Source: Proales similis (Eukaryota; Rotifera; Eurotatoria; Ploima; Proalidae). From it: a stretch of DNA of 64,000 nt. The DNA lies in assembly GCA_019059635.1 (NCBI GenBank), contig JAGVRJ010000008.1:1116001-1180000 (forward strand), written 5' to 3'. Position 1 is the stretch's first letter, and each line of letters starts with the position of its first letter. The translations under genes were made by a program, and so were the position numbers. Under the pieces are notes generated by a model, which saw nothing but the letters and a program-made list of their open reading frames with translations, had not been told where the DNA came from and did no database searches. Positions 11,832 to 44,400 of the stretch are shown one piece after another.

Positions 11832-12537
11832 CTTGAAGAGCAAACAATAATATAGCGATGAACAGTTATGAAGGAACCCCAACAACAAGAATATAAAGTA
11901 AACAGTTTAGGAAAAATCGAAATAAAAACGAAATGCTAATTTTTTCATGTCATGTTCTATGTGTTGGGCTTTGAAAACGGGTTACTGTTTACCTCTCTTT
12001 TGGCTTCTCTTCGTTTTCGACTTCCCCAGAATTCTCTGGTTTTTATTTATTTGTGAGCCGAAATTTTGAGTTACCATGCAGATTTTTTTACGTTTATGTC
12101 TCAACTTATGGATCTGTTGGGAAGTAGGTGTACATTTGTCACTATGAAGCCAAAAAAGTTTATCATTTACTTAGGTATTAAGTTTTAACCTTAAAATCAT
12201 GTGAGCAGGCGTTAGTAGAGATCTGATTTTAGTAAGGTAAAAATATAATATTAGAGAGGCGGGAAAGTAAATAGAAAAACATTAGTGCGCATTCGCATTT
12301 AAATTTCCTTTATTCAGTTCTCCAGCAAACTAATTCCATCCTAGCAATGATCTCCATATATTTACATTCGTTTATTTAATATTGATAAAAGCGATGAGTA
12401 AGATAAGTTATGTTCAGTTGTCGAATAACTATTATTAAATTTCGCTTTTAAAAACTTAACTTAAAATGGCTATGCTAATAATTTCTCTGACAACGTAAAT
12501 AGATTTATGTTCACCGAAGTGAAACTTTGTCTAAACA
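11832..12537. other. Intergenic region between TTC29 and the tau-family gene
   Basis: It contains no recognisable coding exon or RNA gene. It must hold the TTC29 3' end and the promoter and leader of the tau-family gene. Confidence 0.5.
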
Positions 12538-13596
12538 ATGGCAACGACGGCTAACTCAAATCAAATTACGAATGAGAATATGGCCCGGTTTGCAAATAAA
12601 CCGGCAGTCGACGAACCTAATGAAAGTCTATCAAGGCGACCCAGTTACGCAGACCGTTTCAAACAAATTAAAACCTCTCAGGCAATGAATGAAAACCATA
12701 TCGTTCAAGTGAATGCTCAAAATCCTGGGGCCAACAATCCTAATAAAAATCAGGCTCTTTCAAGAGCAAATAAAAATAATAGCCATAGTACCAGCTTAAA
12801 AAATCAAGACCAAAATTCACATCAAAACTTGAGGACAAATCGCCGACCTGTTCGCTTAGATGCTTTAGAGTCTAATCTTTTAACCGAATATTCACCAAAC
12901 TCCAGATCACCTAGAACAGTTAGGAATAAACCTAAACGTAACAAAAGCAATTTAAGTCCAGATGGAAACCAAAAGACGATTCTCCGATGGCATTTATGGT
13001 GGGATAAAAGTGATTCAGAGCTTCGAGTGCCTACTTTTTCTCTGCCTAAGCGCCATGTCCCTTCTAAAATAGGGTCATTGGAGAACATGACACATAGACC
13101 AGGTAAACTGAATCGGCTGCTACGCTGTTTTTATTTACTCCAACTCATTGTATAGGAGGTGGAAATGTTTCTGTTCATAATGAAAAACTTAGCTGGAACA
13201 AAATGTCTCGAACTGAACATATTGCGAGAGGCTATAGACCGGGTGGCGGTAACAAGCAAATTTTTGAGGATCGTCTTAGCTGGCATAAAGAGTCAAAAAT
13301 AGGCTCATTAGGTAAAAGCTTTTTTATCATTTGATTTTTTGGCAAGTCTAATTGGAGCTTGAAACCAAAAAAAAAATATATTTCTAGAGAATATAAGTCA
13401 CTCACCTGGAGGAGGGAATATCAGCATTTTGGATGATCCATTCGACAAGAGTGGCATTCGACCTCGCATCGACAGTGGTTTTGTATATGAACAAGTTTTG
13501 GTGCCCATTGACTACCAAGTGAAAACGCCAAGAAATCGTCTTACACCGATAAGTGAAAACCAACCACGGTCTCGTGTACGAGTAAATGTGAACTAG
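12538..13596 (+). CDS. Tau/MAP2/MAP4-family microtubule-associated protein
   Basis: It binds and stabilises microtubules through C-terminal repeats. Three exons (12538-13102, 13156-13311, 13388-13596) join in frame. The first encodes about 188 residues of low-complexity, Asn/Ser/Arg-rich projection domain. Three tau-type repeats follow: SKIGSLENMTHRPGGGN, then a divergent one (EHIARGYRPGGGN), then SKIGSLENISHSPGGGN. Each carries the PGGG turn, and the first and third are very close to the vertebrate SKIGSLDNITHVPGGGN pattern. Introns interrupt repeats 1 and 3 between the conserved part and the PGGG turn, in the same phase. The tail after repeat 3 (about 55 residues) is short. Three repeats compare with three or four in vertebrate tau. 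Confidence 0.93.
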
Positions 13597-34734: not shown

Positions 34735-36947
34735 TTATTTGAAAGATAAATTAAAAAGAATCGATTTTAAATTCATGGTTAAGAAATCGCTGTCAAAAGG
34801 GTGTCGGTCTAATATATCTTGGCATAACAAATGTAATGCGCAGGCTTCAAAGTGCTTCTTGTTTTTTCTAAAATTTGCGATGCGATTGAAATTATGTTTT
34901 GCTTGGCCTTTATGAAAACGCTTACCGTGTTTTCGATAATTTTTGAAGCAACACAGCCATTTTCTCCAAAAGTGACAACTCAACTTGTTTATGCTTCTCA
35001 TTCCAGAGTTCTCTCATTACTGCACCAATTTGCGAGAACCAGTCCTCGTTACTGCATGAATTGAGAAATGCCTCCTGGCCCGACCATTCGATTGAAAGAT
35101 GCAGAAATACTTCGATCGAATTGGAAAGTAAAACCTTAATGAATTGCATTATACCGAATTCTACATTTAATATGATAAAGCGTATTTTTGTTACTCGCTC
35201 GGTCGATTTGAGCCATTTTAACACCGTTTTGGTACCATTTAACTCCAAAAATATCTCTTTCATAAAATGGCTCTTGAGCATGGTCTTCAAAGCCTCAAGA
35301 ATCACTTGCACTTTGTCCCCTGTTTTATGTATTACTCAAAATAAGATTATTAAGTTCAATAATTGAAAAGTATTTTTACTCTGTGCAACAGTCAATAGTC
35401 CAATTAAGCAAACGAGCATTCTAGCTTTGTCAAATAAATATAAACTTTCTTTGCGTTCAAGTGCTCTCGATGAAAGTGTTTGCGCTTGTATTTGGAAATT
35501 ATGCGGAATGCTTTTGATGGTCTGTTGGGCAGCTGATTCGGCAGAGTGATTTTGAGAACATAAGACATTGAATGCAAACTCGCCGATTCGTCGAATAGTG
35601 GCACTTAGCTGACTTTTCTGAAAAACGAGATGAACTTTTTTAAACTTTTCCCAGAAATAATAAACTTTTGTATATTTACTTTCCGGGTTGAGCAAAATTC
35701 AGCGCGATGCAAAGAAAAGTAAATGAATTCGAGATGCTGATATTGAAGATGAGATGATTTCTCTTCAATAATCAAATCGAACATAAAAGGAATTAGTCTA
35801 ACTATTTCCGTTTTAACATCATATTGATAAGACCGTTCTCTAAGATCAGATTTTAAGAACGCTTCTAAAGTCCATTCGACCAAACATCCAAAAGCTTTTT
35901 GAAGCGGTGATTCGATTTCAACTTTAATATTTTCTTTAGTTCCAGTTATTTCATTTGATTTCAGCTGATTCGTTCTTTGGATAATTTTAGTTCTTTCATC
36001 GTCTGTTACCGTAAACGCTTGCTGCTGTTTTTCTTTGAATTCTTGTTCTGTGGCCTTTGAATTCTCGTTAGCTACGATGTCCCTCTTAGAATTCAGCTTC
36101 TAAATTTTTTTTTTAAATTGAAAATACAACTCAATTATACTCTTGAATGTTCAAAACCTGAAGGTTGGTTAGACGGCTTCTCAGCGATTTGGATTGCTTT
36201 TCAAGTTTCTCACACTGTGTTTCTTTTTCTAATATCTGAAATACCTTTAAGTTGAATAAGTTTTTGAAAAAAAAGTCATTTCTTTACTTTAATTCTGAGC
36301 GACTCATTCGTCTGCTTGAGACCTTTAAATGACTGTTGTAAACGTCGCAGGTCACGGCTCTTTTCAGCCAAGTCGGATTTCAAATGCTGAATTTTATCTT
36401 CATATTTAAATTGAATCTCTTCAATAAGTGTTTGGTCAGAAGAGTTCTTAAAACATAAAAGCTTTTGTTGATCTTGAAGAAGTTGGTATTCTCGTTGATT
36501 TAACTCTAACTCTTTTTCTTGCAACGCATGATATTGTCGGGCTAGTTTTTGATACACCTCTTTGAGATCTTCACTGATTCTTTCAAGTCCTTCATGACTG
36601 ATTCGTGTCTGGGTTATTGGAAAGCTCTCTGAACTCTCACAATCGGATACGGACTCGAATGAGCATACAGTTGAGGATAATAAATTAACTGGTAATTTCA
36701 AATTATACTTTTTTTCAAAAGAGCGCAGCACTCTTTGGTTTAAGTTAAGATGAGATTCAGGAATTCGCATTTGATTATATGTGGAAGCCGCGATCTCGCG
36801 CTGAATTTCCTCGTTTTCTTCCTGACTAGTCTTGTTACTCTGTACGGAGTCTTCTTCATCGACATCTTGATCCCAGTTCACAATCTCCTCATCTCTCATT
36901 GTACTATTTATTGGAATTTTCTCAACTAACTGATGATCCATCATCAC
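34735..36947 (-). CDS. CCDC138: Coiled-coil domain-containing protein 138
   Basis: CCDC138 is a centrosome/centriolar-satellite protein associated with ciliogenesis. Six exons (36947-36288, 36235-36158, 36099-35680, 35617-35380, 35319-34926, 34867-34735) join in frame to about 640 residues, near the vertebrate length. The N-terminal part is acidic and disordered, then a coiled coil (LARQYHALQEKELELNQREY, then SDLAEKSRDLRRLQQSFKGL) like the QKRERFLLEREQLL region of vertebrate CCDC138. The helical C-terminal domain carries the best matches: ATIRRIGEFAFNVL, EAFLNSCSNEDWF, LEKMAVLLQKLSKT, KKHFEACALHLLCQDIL and LTMNLKSILFNLSF, in the same order as the vertebrate protein. All introns are short GT-AG. 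Confidence 0.92.
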
Positions 36948-37696: not shown

Positions 37697-40600
37697 TCAA
37701 AATTGACGAGTGACATGAACATTAGAGGACGAGTTCGAATGCTTAGATTTAATAGGCAGTTGATTGGTGGGGTCACAAGTTTTGCTTGAAGACTTGTAAT
37801 TTTTATGATTGCTAGCTATTGAAGTGACGGTTTCAGTGGTTACTGTTTGCGTTGATATGGTCTCTTGTTGTGGGTAAAACTGATTGCTTTTCAAAGCCAG
37901 ACTACTCACTGAGCCCGATTTTAATTTAGAATCGTTCGCATTACGCTCATTTGGTAGGACACTGATATTGTTTGATGACGAGGCTAGCCGAAGAAGCGAC
38001 TGAGTCAACACAGCTTTGTCCACTCCGTCTGGATTTATTAGCTTGGTGACACTAAACTTACTGTAGGTTCCCCAATTATCGACATTTTCAGCCACGATAA
38101 TTTTTTCTACTTCTTTCCCTTCAGGTTGCTTATTAAGACCCTCGTGTAGACTTGAACTTCGCACTCCTCCACGAACAGAAGCCTTGGTGTTTGACAAAAT
38201 TTTTAACTTTTCACCACTGGCAATACTTATGTCTTTAGTGAATTTAAATATCACATTGACATTTTGGTCCGGCACATATCTGTGAATGTACCATCCTTTC
38301 AAATTTACAGTTTTGTTGGAGCTTAAGTTTTCAAGTACAATGTAATCGCCATCAAGAGAAGTCTCTAGAATTCCTATGGCTCCGGAAACATATCTATTGG
38401 CCTTGTGCTTGATAGCGTATTTGTTGGATTCGCTTTTTGAAGTTATCTGAGTTGATCCGTCGCTCCCTTCATAGCGAACAATATTTCTCTGAGTGGGCGG
38501 AGTTTGCGATCGAGCTGGAATTCGACGCGGACTCTTGACTGTGACGCAGGTTCCCGGTCGCTGGTTGTTAACTATGAAAACATGTCTATGCCCGCTATTC
38601 GACGACACACAATGATCCACTATATTACTCGAATGCCGTGTGCTATTTGCTGTACCCAGATTACGATGTGTCGTACGGCATGTAGAAGATGATCGGTCAG
38701 CTGGAACAACTTGAATATTTATTTGCTTTTCTTGATTTGTCGCGCTTTCAACAGGGCTTGGTCTAGGGACTCGAGGAGTTGGCTTGATTGCGACAGGAAC
38801 ATGGTCTACTCGATGCTCTTCATAATGTTCAGTATGATGTTTCTCTTCAATTACCCGACGAGTGACAGTTGTCAGGGGCTGATTCTTGTCAGAGGATTTT
38901 GCAGTCTGGTATATCTCAACTGGTTCTCTATGCCTGAATATTTGATTACCCTGACTCTGTTCTATCTCTTGTTGTTTTTGGCGTTTTTGAAGCTCAATTA
39001 GCTCTTGCTCTTGTCGCAACTTTTCAATAATATATCTTTCTCTTTCAACTCTCTCAATCTCCAACTTTCTTTTCCTCTCTTCATCTTCTAGGCGTCGTCG
39101 CTCTTCATGGCGCATCTTTCTCTCATTCTCTTCATTTCTGATTTGAGCTTCATATTCAACCTTAAGTCTTGCGCGTTCATCAGCTAGAGCCCTCTTTCGT
39201 TCTTGCTTCTCATATTCTATCCTCAGTCGTTTTTCTTGTTCTTCCAATTCGAACTCGCGGCATTTTTGCGCCTCTATCTCTCTTTGTTGCTTTTGTTGGG
39301 CTTCAATTTCATTCTGTCTTAGTCTCATTTCCTCACTGAGCCGATTTTCTTCGGCCATTCGGTCCATCATTTCGCGCTCACGTCTGTTCTGCTCCTCTGC
39401 TTCATGCCGACGTGCCTCGTACTCTAAATTTCGACTCGGAGCCTTTTCAGTCTCTCTAACCTCAAACGCTCGGTCAGGTTTGGTTTTTTTTTCACCAGCC
39501 ATTCGTATTCGTTCTGCTTCATCACGCTTTAGCCTCTCTTCGATTTCCGATTGTCGTCTTTTTTCTTCCTCTTGCCAAATATGACGTTCGTATTCATCGC
39601 GAGCCAACTGAATATTACGCTGACGTTCAAATTCTTCTTCTGAAGCTCGTTTACGCTGTGCTTCTTCTCGTTCTCGCTGCTTTTGAATCTTCAGTTGTTC
39701 TTCACGTTCCATATTGCGACGCTTTTCATCTTCTTCCAATCGCCTTTCTTGGTCAGCCAATCTTTTTCTTCGTCGTTGGTCCTCCTCTTCAGCTTGCTTT
39801 CTTTCATTTTCGATTTGAACTCTTCTTAGTCTTTCTTGTTCTTCAAGCTGAGCTCTCCGTAGCCTTTCCTCTTCTTCTTTAAGTTCGGCTCTACGCCGAA
39901 GCTCTAGCTCTTCGATTCGACGTCTTTCTTCCTCCAGCTCGTTTCTTCGGCGTCTTTCCTCTTCTTCCGAGCATTTCCGTCTCTCTTCCTCAACCAAAAT
40001 TTCCCGTTCACGTTCCTCACGGCGTCGCTTTTCAAGCTCAAATTCTTTAAGACGCCGGTTATTCTCTTCGATCTGACGCTGCTTTTTACGTAGCTCTTCT
40101 TGTTCATTTCGCCGGACAGCGTCATCAGCTGATCTGTCTTCTTGAATAACTTTGCTATAAAGCTCATAAGAAAATGATGAGTCAGGTTCGCTTGATCGCT
40201 GCATATGATTAAACTGTTGATTTAAAAGTCGCGCGTAGACAGCAACCTCAGCGTCAAGCGATTTGCTGAAGCTAAGCAATTCACTCAATTGGTTTTTCAG
40301 CTCATTTATCTCAGCCTCTAAACAGGCAAGCTGAGCATCCTTGGCTTCCTGATCACTAACTTGCTTGAAGCGTAATTCATTCAAACGAGTATTAAGTTGA
40401 TCAAGAAGCTTATTGAGTCTAAATTCTTCGTTTTTAAGGTCATTAATCTCTGTTTGATTGGCGCTGAACTCAGAGCGTAATTCATTCAAATTTAGATCTC
40501 CTTGCCGTTTTCGTGCTTCTTCAGCTAGTCGGTTGGTAGTTTCGATCTCTTCTACCATTTGAACGTATTTGTATTCGTACTCCTCCCTTAGCGCTTTCAA

Positions 40601-41455
40601 ATTGAATTCGTTCATTTTGTTGAAATCTTCGCGAATGCGCTTCTTTATCTCTCTAAGCTGCATTTTATAGAAAGCGTCAAGATCCTGACCATTACCGTTA
40701 GAGCCGTCCAATCTTTCAAATTCTTCTCGCATAATACGGAACAGTTCTTGCTCAAACTTTTTCTGTTCGACTAGCGTTTGGATGCGACACTCGATATCAA
40801 TGCGTTCCTCTTGCTGCTGATCAAGATTGTCACTCAATCCTTTTAGTCGGTCGCGTAGTTCTTCATTTTTGTCCTCAAAATCATTAAGCAGCTTCTGTTT
40901 GCTTTCAAAGTCATCCTTGAGGAAACTTAGTTCATGTAGGCTCTCAGCTCGTTTGCTCTCCAATAGACGAATTTTTTCCTTTTCAATAGACTGATAGCGT
41001 ACCTCTTCATCAAATTGCACGCGCAAGCGGTCGAGCTCATACATCGAGCGCGAAGCTCTCATCTTGCTGATGGTACTCATCTCGCTGACTTGATTTAGTT
41101 CGCGCTTAGCAACGAGGAGATCTTGGTCAAATTTAGCCCTCAATGTTGAGCCAGAGCCAGCAAGCAGTTGCTCCCGACAACTACGAACCAATTCTTGGAG
41201 CTCATCGTTTTCTGCCTTTTTCTGTTTGAGTGAATCAACCAATTGATCTAGTCGTTGGTTAAGTTGATTCAGTTCCTCTTTCTCGTTGGTCACTCGTTGG
41301 TTTTGAGCATTTATTAATGAACCAATGGTACGGCTGCTGATGCGGTGTTCTATTTCTTTGGTTCTTATACGCTTGGTGAAGCCAGCATTACTGCGTGGCT
41401 CTTGGCTTTTGCTTCGCTCGCGACCACCCAAGAACTCCTCGTCGTTTGTCGACAT
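37697..41455 (-). CDS. Intermediate-filament protein with lamin tail and long inserted charged helix
   Basis: This 1252-residue protein is encoded without introns. A short head (to about residue 60) leads to an intermediate-filament rod: the start motif reads ELNQLNQRLDQLVDSLKQKK and the end motif, near residue 410, LLSFSKSLDAEVAVYARLLN, matching the family's LNxRLAxYID and LDAEIATYRKLLE signatures. The rod length suits the long coil 1b of lamins and protostome filaments. A segment of about 400 residues (435-830) follows, almost entirely Glu, Arg, Lys and Gln, as in a single alpha-helix or trichohyalin-like arm. After a Pro/Arg/Thr-rich linker, a lamin tail domain (about 1010-1150) is recognised by SGAIGILETSLDGDYIVLEN, LKGWYIHRYV and KILSNTKA. 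The protein ends VTRQF with no CaaX box, and I see no classic nuclear signal, so it may be cytoplasmic. Confidence 0.9.
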   Translation of the reverse strand: MSTNDEEFLGGRERSKSQEPRSNAGFTKRIRTKEIEHRISSRTIGSLINAQNQRVTNEKEELNQLNQRLDQLVDSLKQKKAENDELQELVRSCREQLLAGSGSTLRAKFDQDLLVAKRELNQVSEMSTISKMRASRSMYELDRLRVQFDEEVRYQSIEKEKIRLLESKRAESLHELSFLKDDFESKQKLLNDFEDKNEELRDRLKGLSDNLDQQQEERIDIECRIQTLVEQKKFEQELFRIMREEFERLDGSNGNGQDLDAFYKMQLREIKKRIREDFNKMNEFNLKALREEYEYKYVQMVEEIETTNRLAEEARKRQGDLNLNELRSEFSANQTEINDLKNEEFRLNKLLDQLNTRLNELRFKQVSDQEAKDAQLACLEAEINELKNQLSELLSFSKSLDAEVAVYARLLNQQFNHMQRSSEPDSSFSYELYSKVIQEDRSADDAVRRNEQEELRKKQRQIEENNRRLKEFELEKRRREEREREILVEEERRKCSEEEERRRRNELEEERRRIEELELRRRAELKEEEERLRRAQLEEQERLRRVQIENERKQAEEEDQRRRKRLADQERRLEEDEKRRNMEREEQLKIQKQREREEAQRKRASEEEFERQRNIQLARDEYERHIWQEEEKRRQSEIEERLKRDEAERIRMAGEKKTKPDRAFEVRETEKAPSRNLEYEARRHEAEEQNRREREMMDRMAEENRLSEEMRLRQNEIEAQQKQQREIEAQKCREFELEEQEKRLRIEYEKQERKRALADERARLKVEYEAQIRNEENERKMRHEERRRLEDEERKRKLEIERVERERYIIEKLRQEQELIELQKRQKQQEIEQSQGNQIFRHREPVEIYQTAKSSDKNQPLTTVTRRVIEEKHHTEHYEEHRVDHVPVAIKPTPRVPRPSPVESATNQEKQINIQVVPADRSSSTCRTTHRNLGTANSTRHSSNIVDHCVSSNSGHRHVFIVNNQRPGTCVTVKSPRRIPARSQTPPTQRNIVRYEGSDGSTQITSKSESNKYAIKHKANRYVSGAIGILETSLDGDYIVLENLSSNKTVNLKGWYIHRYVPDQNVNVIFKFTKDISIASGEKLKILSNTKASVRGGVRSSSLHEGLNKQPEGKEVEKIIVAENVDNWGTYSKFSVTKLINPDGVDKAVLTQSLLRLASSSNNISVLPNERNANDSKLKSGSVSSLALKSNQFYPQQETISTQTVTTETVTSIASNHKNYKSSSKTCDPTNQLPIKSKHSNSSSNVHVTRQF

Positions 41456-44400
41456 GTTTCTTATTCACAGGGCACTCGTTTTACAACAGCATCTAAAGAG
41501 AAACATACTTAATTTAATTTCCAGTGAATTGGTCACGAGTTTCTCGATTTTTCTAAGTTTCAGTAGATTACAATTAAAAACAATGCAAATTCGCGCATTC
41601 GAATTTAACCTGTAACCTGTATTACGTAACGCCAGAATCTATATTCAAACAGTTCGTTCGAACATGCACCAAAGTATGGATGGATGACAAACATTGGGGC
41701 TCCTGATGTGGCCTATGGGCCGCTAGATGAAAAAGTTGGCAAAAGAAATGTCTATTTATTAAGTTTATGTATGTGAACTGAAAATATGGAAGATTTGCTC
41801 ATTTAATTTAGAAGAGTGTAATTCGATTAAAAGAAACACAAAGCGTTTGAACAGCTGTATGCATGATTGCTCGCAAATAGTTTACGATTAAGCTCAAAGC
41901 TCATGAGGACTGCCAGCTTATGAAAGCAAATTTTTCTAGTGATTCAAAAGAGACCACTTTTACCTTAATATTTTTGTTTCATATTCAATAGCTTTAACGG
42001 AAAAGCTTTTGCTACATTATTGTAGGCAAAGGTTAGAAATCTGATTGAAATTTTACCCATGCCGAGTTGCAAAATGGGAGTGAACTTGTGGTTTAAATGA
42101 AAATAGAATGAAAATATTCAGGCCAAGAGATTAAAAGAAGTGGATTAAAGAAAAAAAATCCGTTCCCTCAAATATAAATTTAAGTAAAAGTGGATTAATG
42201 CGCAAGAAAGAAGTATTTTTAATAAAAATTAAAATTATTTCTATGAATTACGCGACATACTGACGCGACTATAAATAAAACTGACAGACCCAACTGAATA
42301 TCAAATAGTAATGTGGGAATATCAAAATAAAAACCGAATTAATTTAAGAAGCGAATGTCTTAATCCAACTGTAATGTCACAAACAGCAAACTTTGGACAG
42401 AATCAAACGTCAAGCTAAAACAGCAAATAACCAAGAGAGAAAATACAGGCTAGATGGCCATAAATAATGCTTTGCACTCTGAAAGCTAGTTTATCACAAC
42501 GGAAGGCTTAAGAAAACAAAGCGAAATAGAAAGAGTTTCTAAAGCAATAAGCACAAAAGTCGTAGAAATAGTATTCATCGCACAATCATGAACCTTTTTA
42601 ACAATTTTCTAATCAGGAAATTTGATTTTTTAAAATGAAAGGAATGAGATGAACAAAGGTTGTTGAAATACGCCAAAGCTTGCAGCTATAGGCACACTTT
42701 CCCCAATCTCAGTCTAGTTTGGAAATTAGAGTGTAGTTTGCTCTGATGTGAAAAGCGTGAAATTACTCTTTCAAAATAGAATATTTCATTCTTGAGCTAA
42801 TTTGTAGCGATTAGAAATATCTTTGGGTAAAAATTATTGAAATTAAGATGAGAGGGAATGCTAAGGGAAAGAGAAGAGTGAGAGCGAAAGGGTAAGAGAG
42901 GAGGTGAAATTAATTTTTCGATAGGCCGACCTGGTTGGTCTTATCAAGATTTCAAGCTCAAATAGCCAAGCATAATCGAAAGCATATATTTTTATATACC
43001 TTTGCGCGCGCGGATGAGTTCATACGCACTAATACTGGTCATATTGTTTAAAATAGTGACTGATTAAACAAATCTAATAGAAACTCATTTCAATCAAATT
43101 TTTCGAATAACCTGGTCATTGTTTCGAATAATCGTTAAAAAATTTCGAGTCAGCTACCCAAAAATTTTTGCGAAATTCTGGGTTCAAAAAGAGAGAGTGA
43201 TAGTTAATAACGACGCCCAATTTAAAGCTGAAATAGCTACACGTCAGGCAAACTCATCTATCTCTTAATACGCAGAGCTTTATCATCAAAGTTCACCACT
43301 CATCCCCTTTAAATAAAGTTTAAATTTCTCAAATTTCTGAAAATAATGATCAAGAAATTCACAAAATTATTTATGAGGTAGTCAATCTTATCTGTTTCAA
43401 ACATGATAAACGCATCTGAGCATTGGAATTGAATACCCATGTATGATTGCTTTAAGCTTCTTTAATTTAGTATAACGAAGAAACTTGCCATTTGTCCTCT
43501 TACTAAGAGGTTGTGAATTTTTCCAGCGTTATAGAAATACAAATAAAAAAGGAGAGGCCCATCAAACTAAAAAGCCTTCAGGCAAGTGTTAAACATTTAT
43601 CGCTAAGACTAGGTTAAACACATGCAGTTTCTCAATAGAGTGCAAAATGAATCTGTTCAAGCCATGCGAGCAGAGGATACTGAATCGATAACGCCCCAAA
43701 AATTTTTCTTACAAAATGACCTATTATAAAAACAGACCATTTTAATTGCACAATGATTGAATAAGCTTAGAGACGAGGTTTGAAGGGTAAAGATTTGATG
43801 TAGGGAACTGGTGCGTAATTGGTGATGAAACCCTATAGCTTTTAGTCATCTTACTTCTTTTTTATATTTCTCTAAAGTTACTCAAGTTAGGTTAGTTAGG
43901 TAGTTGGAACAAACCAATAAATTCCAGAGTTACCGGATTGGTTTGTCGCAGAGACGACAATCTATTTATCATGAAAACCTCGTTCATAATTTAAGCCGAT
44001 AGCTTTCAAATGATCCGATTTGTCCGAGTGCTAAACAAACAATTCTTCCTGCGCATGCTACCTCTTGAACAAAAAAGAAGCTTAAAGACTGATGATGGCA
44101 TATGCAATTTGTAATAATAAGCTTTGAGAAGACGCGCGGGGTAGCCTGCTCTTGCAGGGAAATAAGTGCAGGTAGGTATAAGGTAAAGACAAAGAAACTA
44201 GTAGCCTAGAAGAGAGACGGGAAAGAAAATACGAAGAAAAACTCATAAGCGACCAAGAGAAGTAGAGAGAACAAGAATAGGCTATAGGGAGACAGAAAAA
44301 TTTTGAAGTGTACGAGTCAATTTAATTACTTTGAAAATCTACGCCGATCGGATCATTTTTTGGGTTACGCAACCAAAATACTTGCGGGCTCCTCTAAGAT

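Follow-up and report, generated by a model that had tools for sequence, protein, structure and literature searches.

A gene on the reverse strand of a 64,000 nucleotide stretch of the genome of the monogonont rotifer Proales similis (contig JAGVRJ010000008.1, positions 1,116,001 to 1,180,000; this whole stretch is referred to as the window, and positions given without a contig name are those of the window) was found to encode an intermediate filament (IF) protein, in which a charged segment of approximately 420 residues lies between the rod and a lamin tail domain (LTD). Its coding sequence (37697-41455) is a single ATG-to-stop frame of 1252 codons plus the stop, without an intron. The open frame spans 37697-41464. 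Its ATG lies at 41455, four codons downstream of a stop, and an AATAAA is located 585 bases past the stop codon that ends the gene. The order of the domains, all encoded on this strand, is head, IF rod, charged segment (hereafter the arm), LTD and the terminal residues TRQF. An IF rod and an LTD separated by a charged segment in one intron-free frame had been described in an earlier note on this DNA, and this description is confirmed by the frame and its Pfam matches.

The head (41285-41455, residues 1-57) bears the motifs RSKS and EIEHRIS and is followed by a rod of 356 residues (40217-41284, residues 58-413). Searching residues 1-413 alone with the Pfam Filament model gave a match of 46.7 bits (cut-off 40) over model positions 1-308 of 313, and the ends of this coiled-coil rod are conserved. 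A scan of the whole protein at E <= 0.01 reported the LTD alone (30.3 bits), the loss of the Filament match being taken to be due to a composition correction provoked by the arm. On the genome (15 contigs, 32,716,893 bases), fourteen matches to the Filament model were identified, representing ten IF genes (the present gene and the lamin of the species included, with three found in two pieces) and a long coiled coil (L023) scoring 22.2 bits, under the cut-off. The rods of the other nine IFs are 345-364 residues long, and a hidden Markov model (HMM) of them scored the first 560 residues of the present protein at 122.9 bits, with none of 23 decoys being reported at E <= 10 when composition correction was on. 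With the correction off, the scores were 208.8 for the present protein, 208.7 for L023, 77.9 for the arm alone, 55.3 for a reversed rod and at most 33.0 for shuffled rods. The sequence alone gave no match to PDB at E <= 0.001. A profile of 14 relatives, in which the present protein was included for residues 930-1252 only and its own rod was therefore absent, matched lamin A/C coils (E 9e-9) and vimentin (E 2.5e-6), with SEC3 (E 6e-7) between them; the SEC3 match falls in the columns of the arm, and such matches look compositional. Matches to SMC (21 bits, where the cut-off is 729) and to WAPL and calpain inhibitor (below their cut-offs) were taken as chance.

Ranking of the other IFs of the genome with a profile of the family rod placed four LTD-bearing cytoplasmic IFs (L016a, L016b, L019 and L020) first at 143.8, 140.7, 134.4 and 128.4 bits, followed by L018, L022 and L015 at 109-86 bits, the lamin at 46.7 bits and L021 at 38.9 bits. 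The rod tree has a branch, supported at 95/98, that separates the family along with L016, L019, L020 and L022 from the lamin, L015, L018 and L021. The closest single paralogue was L022 in this tree (86/67) and L020 in the tree of rod plus LTD (98/94), which L022 could not enter. The head motif EIEHRIS takes the form EIERGVR in several relatives and IERGVR in L016, L019 and L020, and was not seen in the lamin, L017. The protein is read as cytoplasmic because its rod is nearer to the cytoplasmic IFs with an LTD that this genome encodes, and because the lamin is a separate gene. An IF frame at position 601864 of contig C1 ends in SSRKFFAFWK, as does the lamin published for P. similis (PMC10125929), and the lamin of this species is hence a gene other than the present one.

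That the gene could instead be a second, diverged rotifer lamin situated at the nuclear lamina, with the arm spacing the LTD from the filament, is judged quite unlikely. The LTD and short basic clusters would suit such a lamin, as would the absence of a CaaX box from the C-terminus TRQF, this being normal in rotifer lamins, with those of monogononts having ends rich in aromatic residues (PMC10125929). However, the rod scores far nearer to the LTD-bearing cytoplasmic IFs and the head motif resembles theirs, while rod identity to L017 is 20%. Furthermore, unlike in the lamin, no KKRR-type cluster stands directly behind the rod, the basic clusters being situated inside the arm among acidic residues. 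The earlier note had argued from the missing CaaX box that the protein may not be anchored in the nuclear envelope; this argument fails, since no rotifer lamin examined in that study, P. similis lamin included, carries the box (PMC10125929), and its absence is thus not diagnostic.

Relatives were sought with three protein searches, each scoring approximately 7,980 candidates sharing the most words with the query; these searches are incomplete, as P0012-P0016, although part of the query of the last one, were missing from its results. Among the 22 proteins found, rod, arm and LTD are all present in twelve (P0001-P0006, P0008-P0010 and P0013-P0015, with P0013 lacking its start), another seven, which are partial, agree with this order (P0007, P0011 and P0017-P0021), and two have no arm (P0012, and P0016 with its LTD cut). 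The last, P0022, was rejected as unrelated, resembling a metalloprotease drawn in through low-complexity sequence. P0020 is the GenBank entry 'Intermediate filament B, partial [Brachionus plicatilis]', is 51% identical over 35% of the present protein and holds the start of the arm, with most of the arm and the LTD outside the record. The best match of P0018 in P. similis is the present protein (387 bits, with the next at 88), and the remaining relatives are presumably also of rotifer origin; that P0013-P0015 might come from bdelloids is a guess. An arm arising in P. similis alone was rejected, given that relatives carry it. The earlier note had named an already known lamin orthologue carrying this insert as evidence that would overturn its view. 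No such protein is among the relatives found, as those bearing the insert are hypothetical or unnamed and 'Intermediate filament B, partial' holds the arm start only. The end TRQF is shared with P0001-P0006 and P0008-P0011 and is not present in P0012-P0015. The best trees place the arm-less P0012 and P0016 within the armed clade; a single clade of armed rows was not rejected by the approximately unbiased test (p 0.15 with the rod and 0.383 with rod and LTD together). No arm-less paralogue was found in P. similis with P0012 as the query, its two best matches being the present gene itself. It is extremely improbable that the charged segment lies outside the mature message, either spliced out or as the seam of two genes run together. 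The frames of P0018, P0019 and P0020 do end shortly after the start of the arm, as at an intron, but relatives have frames that stay open through the arm, with its start, tip and charge pattern conserved, and the P. similis gene is itself one frame from ATG to stop.

A linker with the sequence FSYE.Y (40127-40216, residues 414-443) follows the rod. The charged segment was delimited to residues 430-851 (38903-40168), of which 65% are Glu, Arg, Lys or Gln (68% with Asp) and 59% are charged; the length of about 400 residues given in the earlier note stands, while its wording of 'nearly all' for the four residues was an overstatement. At the DNA level the segment holds only three short tandem arrays (scores 31-72) and is not a tandem repeat, and its codons are mixed, with 115 Glu encoded by 75 GAA and 40 GAG and all six Arg codons present. 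Chance or a repeat artefact as its source was ruled out by the repeat scan, the codon mix and the charge statistics.

Within residues 444-846, opposite charges four positions apart were counted 118 times against 71 in shuffles (z 7.1), and like charges 21 times against 71 (z -7.8). Over residues 430-851, opposite charges at i+3 and i+4 combined reached z 9.1 against shuffles, while the power of a hydrophobic heptad was z -0.3; this test is a statistic of our own and not a published predictor. Fourteen arm segments from twelve relatives behaved alike (charge z 5.3-11.8, heptad power z -1.4 to 0.7). As controls, six IF rods, that of the present protein included, gave charge z 3.1-4.7 and heptad power z 2.2-10.7, with four pieces of the coiled coil L023 giving 0.4-4.8 and 2.0-25.0. 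High charge, opposite charges at i+3 and i+4 and no hydrophobic seam are the marks of a single alpha-helix (SAH) domain, and the arm has all three.

Modelling of residues 380-945 with AlphaFold2 from 12 sequences (mean pLDDT 70.2, pTM 0.24) gave two helices, a first of 212 residues (39491-40126, residues 444-655; pLDDT 66-88 away from its ends) and a second of 166 residues (38939-39436, residues 674-839; pLDDT 80-92 away from its ends), both also marked by the charge statistics. The break between them (39437-39490, residues 656-673) is non-helical in the model and coincides with G654, P660 and P673, and past residue 840 confidence is low. The distinction between a single alpha-helix and a coiled coil, proposed as a check in the earlier note, thus came out as SAH-like and without a coiled-coil signal, with a helix being modelled. 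The rigid arm of that note is retained as a long helical segment, and not as one of unbroken rigidity in the present protein, because of the Gly/Pro break at 654-673. In P0004, P0006, P0008 and P0009, four of the nine close relatives that are complete, Gly and Pro are absent from the whole stretch that starts 40 residues beyond the rod and ends with the arm tip. Lengths of approximately 32 and 25 nm would be expected for the two helices, taking 0.15 nm for each residue. A coiled-coil arm, or one pairing with its counterpart in the partner chain to give a longer and stiffer rod, is considered very unlikely. An IF dimer would be expected to bring two arms together, and AlphaFold2 does show a helix; however, neither the present arm nor the 14 segments of relatives carry the heptad signal that the same test detects in the rods of six IFs and in the four pieces of L023, and no hydrophobic period of 3.5, 3.6, 3.67 or 4.0 exceeded z 2.5 in residues 444-846.

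Among nine close relatives the arm ranges from 352 to 588 residues. Averaged over ten rows, the share of the commonest residue was 83% at the arm tip (38972-39070, residues 796-828, with the motif EKLRQEQELIE), 55% in the arm middle and 86% in the LTD; a VDHC motif and the C-terminus were each 93% conserved, and the arm middle and the linkers are not conserved. An arm free in sequence and length, with a conserved tip and LTD, is the pattern that a spacer would show. Ensconsin is a microtubule-binding protein, and the profile of relatives matches it weakly (E 0.005). The INCENP helix is likewise described as binding microtubules (PMC4571873), and the arm could on these grounds be the working part, binding microtubules, actin or another charged surface and so linking filament systems, with the LTD secondary. 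This is thought unlikely, as it is the middle of the arm that varies freely and its length that differs, while tip and LTD are held; the same profile matches SEC3 better, in what looks like a compositional match, and the arm alone has no match among PDB sequences at E <= 0.1.

The LTD is encoded at 37985-38422 (residues 1012-1157), and the protein ends in HVTRQF (37700-37717, residues 1247-1252). The Pfam LTD model matched residues 852-1252 at 33.4 bits, slightly under the cut-off of 34.3, and at 34.4 bits, slightly over it, in the search of the genome. AlphaFold2 modelling of residues 930-1252 from 15 sequences gave a beta-sandwich (mean pLDDT 55.6, core blocks 87-93), and the best 16 Foldseek matches of this model in PDB were all lamin tail domains (E 6e-8 to 4e-5, TM by target 0.56-0.74, identity 21-24%), which identifies the domain as an LTD with the lamin Ig fold. 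Between the end of the rod (413) and the start of the LTD (1012) lie approximately 600 residues, the arm making up about 420 of them, in place of the short linker of LTD-bearing cytoplasmic IFs. LTD identity was higher than rod identity in all 105 pairs of 15 family proteins (mean 75.0% versus 44.9%), P0016 entering the comparison with the present protein through 55 LTD columns only. Among the four LTD-bearing cytoplasmic paralogues it was the rod that was more conserved, in six of six pairs. A VDHCVSSNSGHRHVFIVN motif preceding the LTD (38567-38620, residues 946-963) is strongly conserved in the family and was modelled with low confidence.

The Pfam LTD search of the genome returned six matches. 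One of these is a rod-less frame (L014, position 3280200 of contig C1) of 328 residues that scored 33 bits, under the cut-off. The LTD of L019 is absent from the list and rests on alignment. Locus L016 (1511500-1521000 of contig C8) holds two LTD-bearing IF genes approximately 4 kb apart in opposite orientation, which share 148 consecutive identical residues and two stretches of identical DNA (266 and 158 bases); these identities suggest that a recent gene conversion or duplication may have taken place.

With the protostome LTD-bearing cytoplasmic IFs, represented here by L016a, L016b, L019 and L020, the present protein shares a lamin-length rod, an Ig-like LTD and a similar head motif. The entire tail of these paralogues lies within 156-190 residues past the rod, without the long arm, and the balance of conservation between rod and LTD is reversed. 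IFs of the neurofilament and nestin type have very long charged projecting tails that are largely disordered and carry no terminal Ig domain; the present protein has the long charged tail in common with them and differs in that it forms a regular charged helix carrying a folded domain. Rotifer lamins have the rod, the LTD and the lack of CaaX in common with the present protein (PMC10125929), and the species' own lamin differs in its rod, in its KKRR-type cluster and in having no long arm. Trichohyalin is not an IF protein and is similar in its charged composition. INCENP, myosins and caldesmon use a helix with opposite charges at i+3 and i+4 as a spacer or spring and are not IF proteins (PMC5812594, PMC4571873); neither 'intermediate filament' nor 'lamin' appears in the main text of the former source. 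Cytoplasmic IF architectures are described by Kollmar (2015) as conserved within subtypes (PMC4448529). The earlier note knew of no description of this architecture, and no IF in which an SAH arm precedes an LTD was found in the open-access literature (titles and starts of abstracts) among the matches listed.

From sequence comparison and modelling, the protein is probably a cytoplasmic IF of rotifers whose LTD, serving for binding, is carried on a stalk that could reach approximately 60 nm. The rod would assemble into filaments, and the arm would stay unpaired and project as a hinged, semi-rigid stalk of about 32 + 25 nm, at whose tip the LTD and its neighbouring motifs may bind one conserved partner. 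The filament would thereby tether itself to a neighbouring filament, a membrane junction or a skeletal layer. Elsewhere, the attachment of filaments to other structures is the task of separate linker proteins, and IF tails usually stay near the filament. C. elegans IFA-2 is a protostome cytoplasmic IF with a lamin tail domain. Its tail is reported to be essential for function (PMC4351089), and the syncytial skin of rotifers is described as having an electron-dense intracytoplasmic lamina (PMC13403294); that the present protein is located in this lamina is a guess. In the fullest form of the proposal, which is tentative and on the whole doubtful, the protein would be a self-linking IF, whose SAH stalk holds a hyperconserved LTD tens of nanometres off the filament to dock one fixed partner, building a skeletal layer in the syncytial skin and replacing linker proteins.

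Several observations weigh against the reading of a cytoplasmic IF with a stalked LTD. When composition correction is left out, the coiled coil L023 equals the present protein in its score with the rod HMM, and long branches occur in the trees, the family being on one in both the rod and the rod-plus-LTD trees. The LTD also lies 2-5 points above the rod between the present protein and all five paralogues compared, and among four lamin pairs the LTD was higher in two, level in one and lower by 1 point in one. A smaller salt-bridge excess is present in IF rods and L023 pieces as well, and little (1.5) in the arm tip at residues 800-850; the excess by itself is not special, its size and the missing heptad are. 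A single-chain model cannot distinguish a lone from a paired helix. The arm-less P0012 and P0016, with rods 29% and 34% identical to that of the present protein, keep LTDs identical to its own in 72% of 128 columns and 82% of 55 columns, respectively, and because two arm-less relatives retain a conserved LTD, the job of this domain may not need the arm. Finally, tail-less IFA-2 is reported to arrive at its site nonetheless (PMC4351089).

Elsewhere in the window, a frame at 34922-35335, downstream of the IF gene and on the same strand, matches the CCDC138 C-terminal domain. A frame at 12535-13155 has a tau/MAP tubulin-binding repeat (27.9 bits) and one at 52454-53002 matches the inscuteable C-terminal domain. 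The G+C content of the window (1-64000) is 37%, that of the loci from the IF search (L015-L023) is 42-53%, and the literature gives 45.51 for P. similis, a value taken as G+C (PMC11954553).

If the proposed stalk and its binding LTD are real, they would represent a new way of building a spaced, self-tethered filament network, with the binding domain placed on a long charged helix. The gene offers a starting point for questions on the composition of the intracytoplasmic lamina of rotifers, and an LTD that is more conserved than the rod may provide a route to a binding partner of this domain outside the nucleus.

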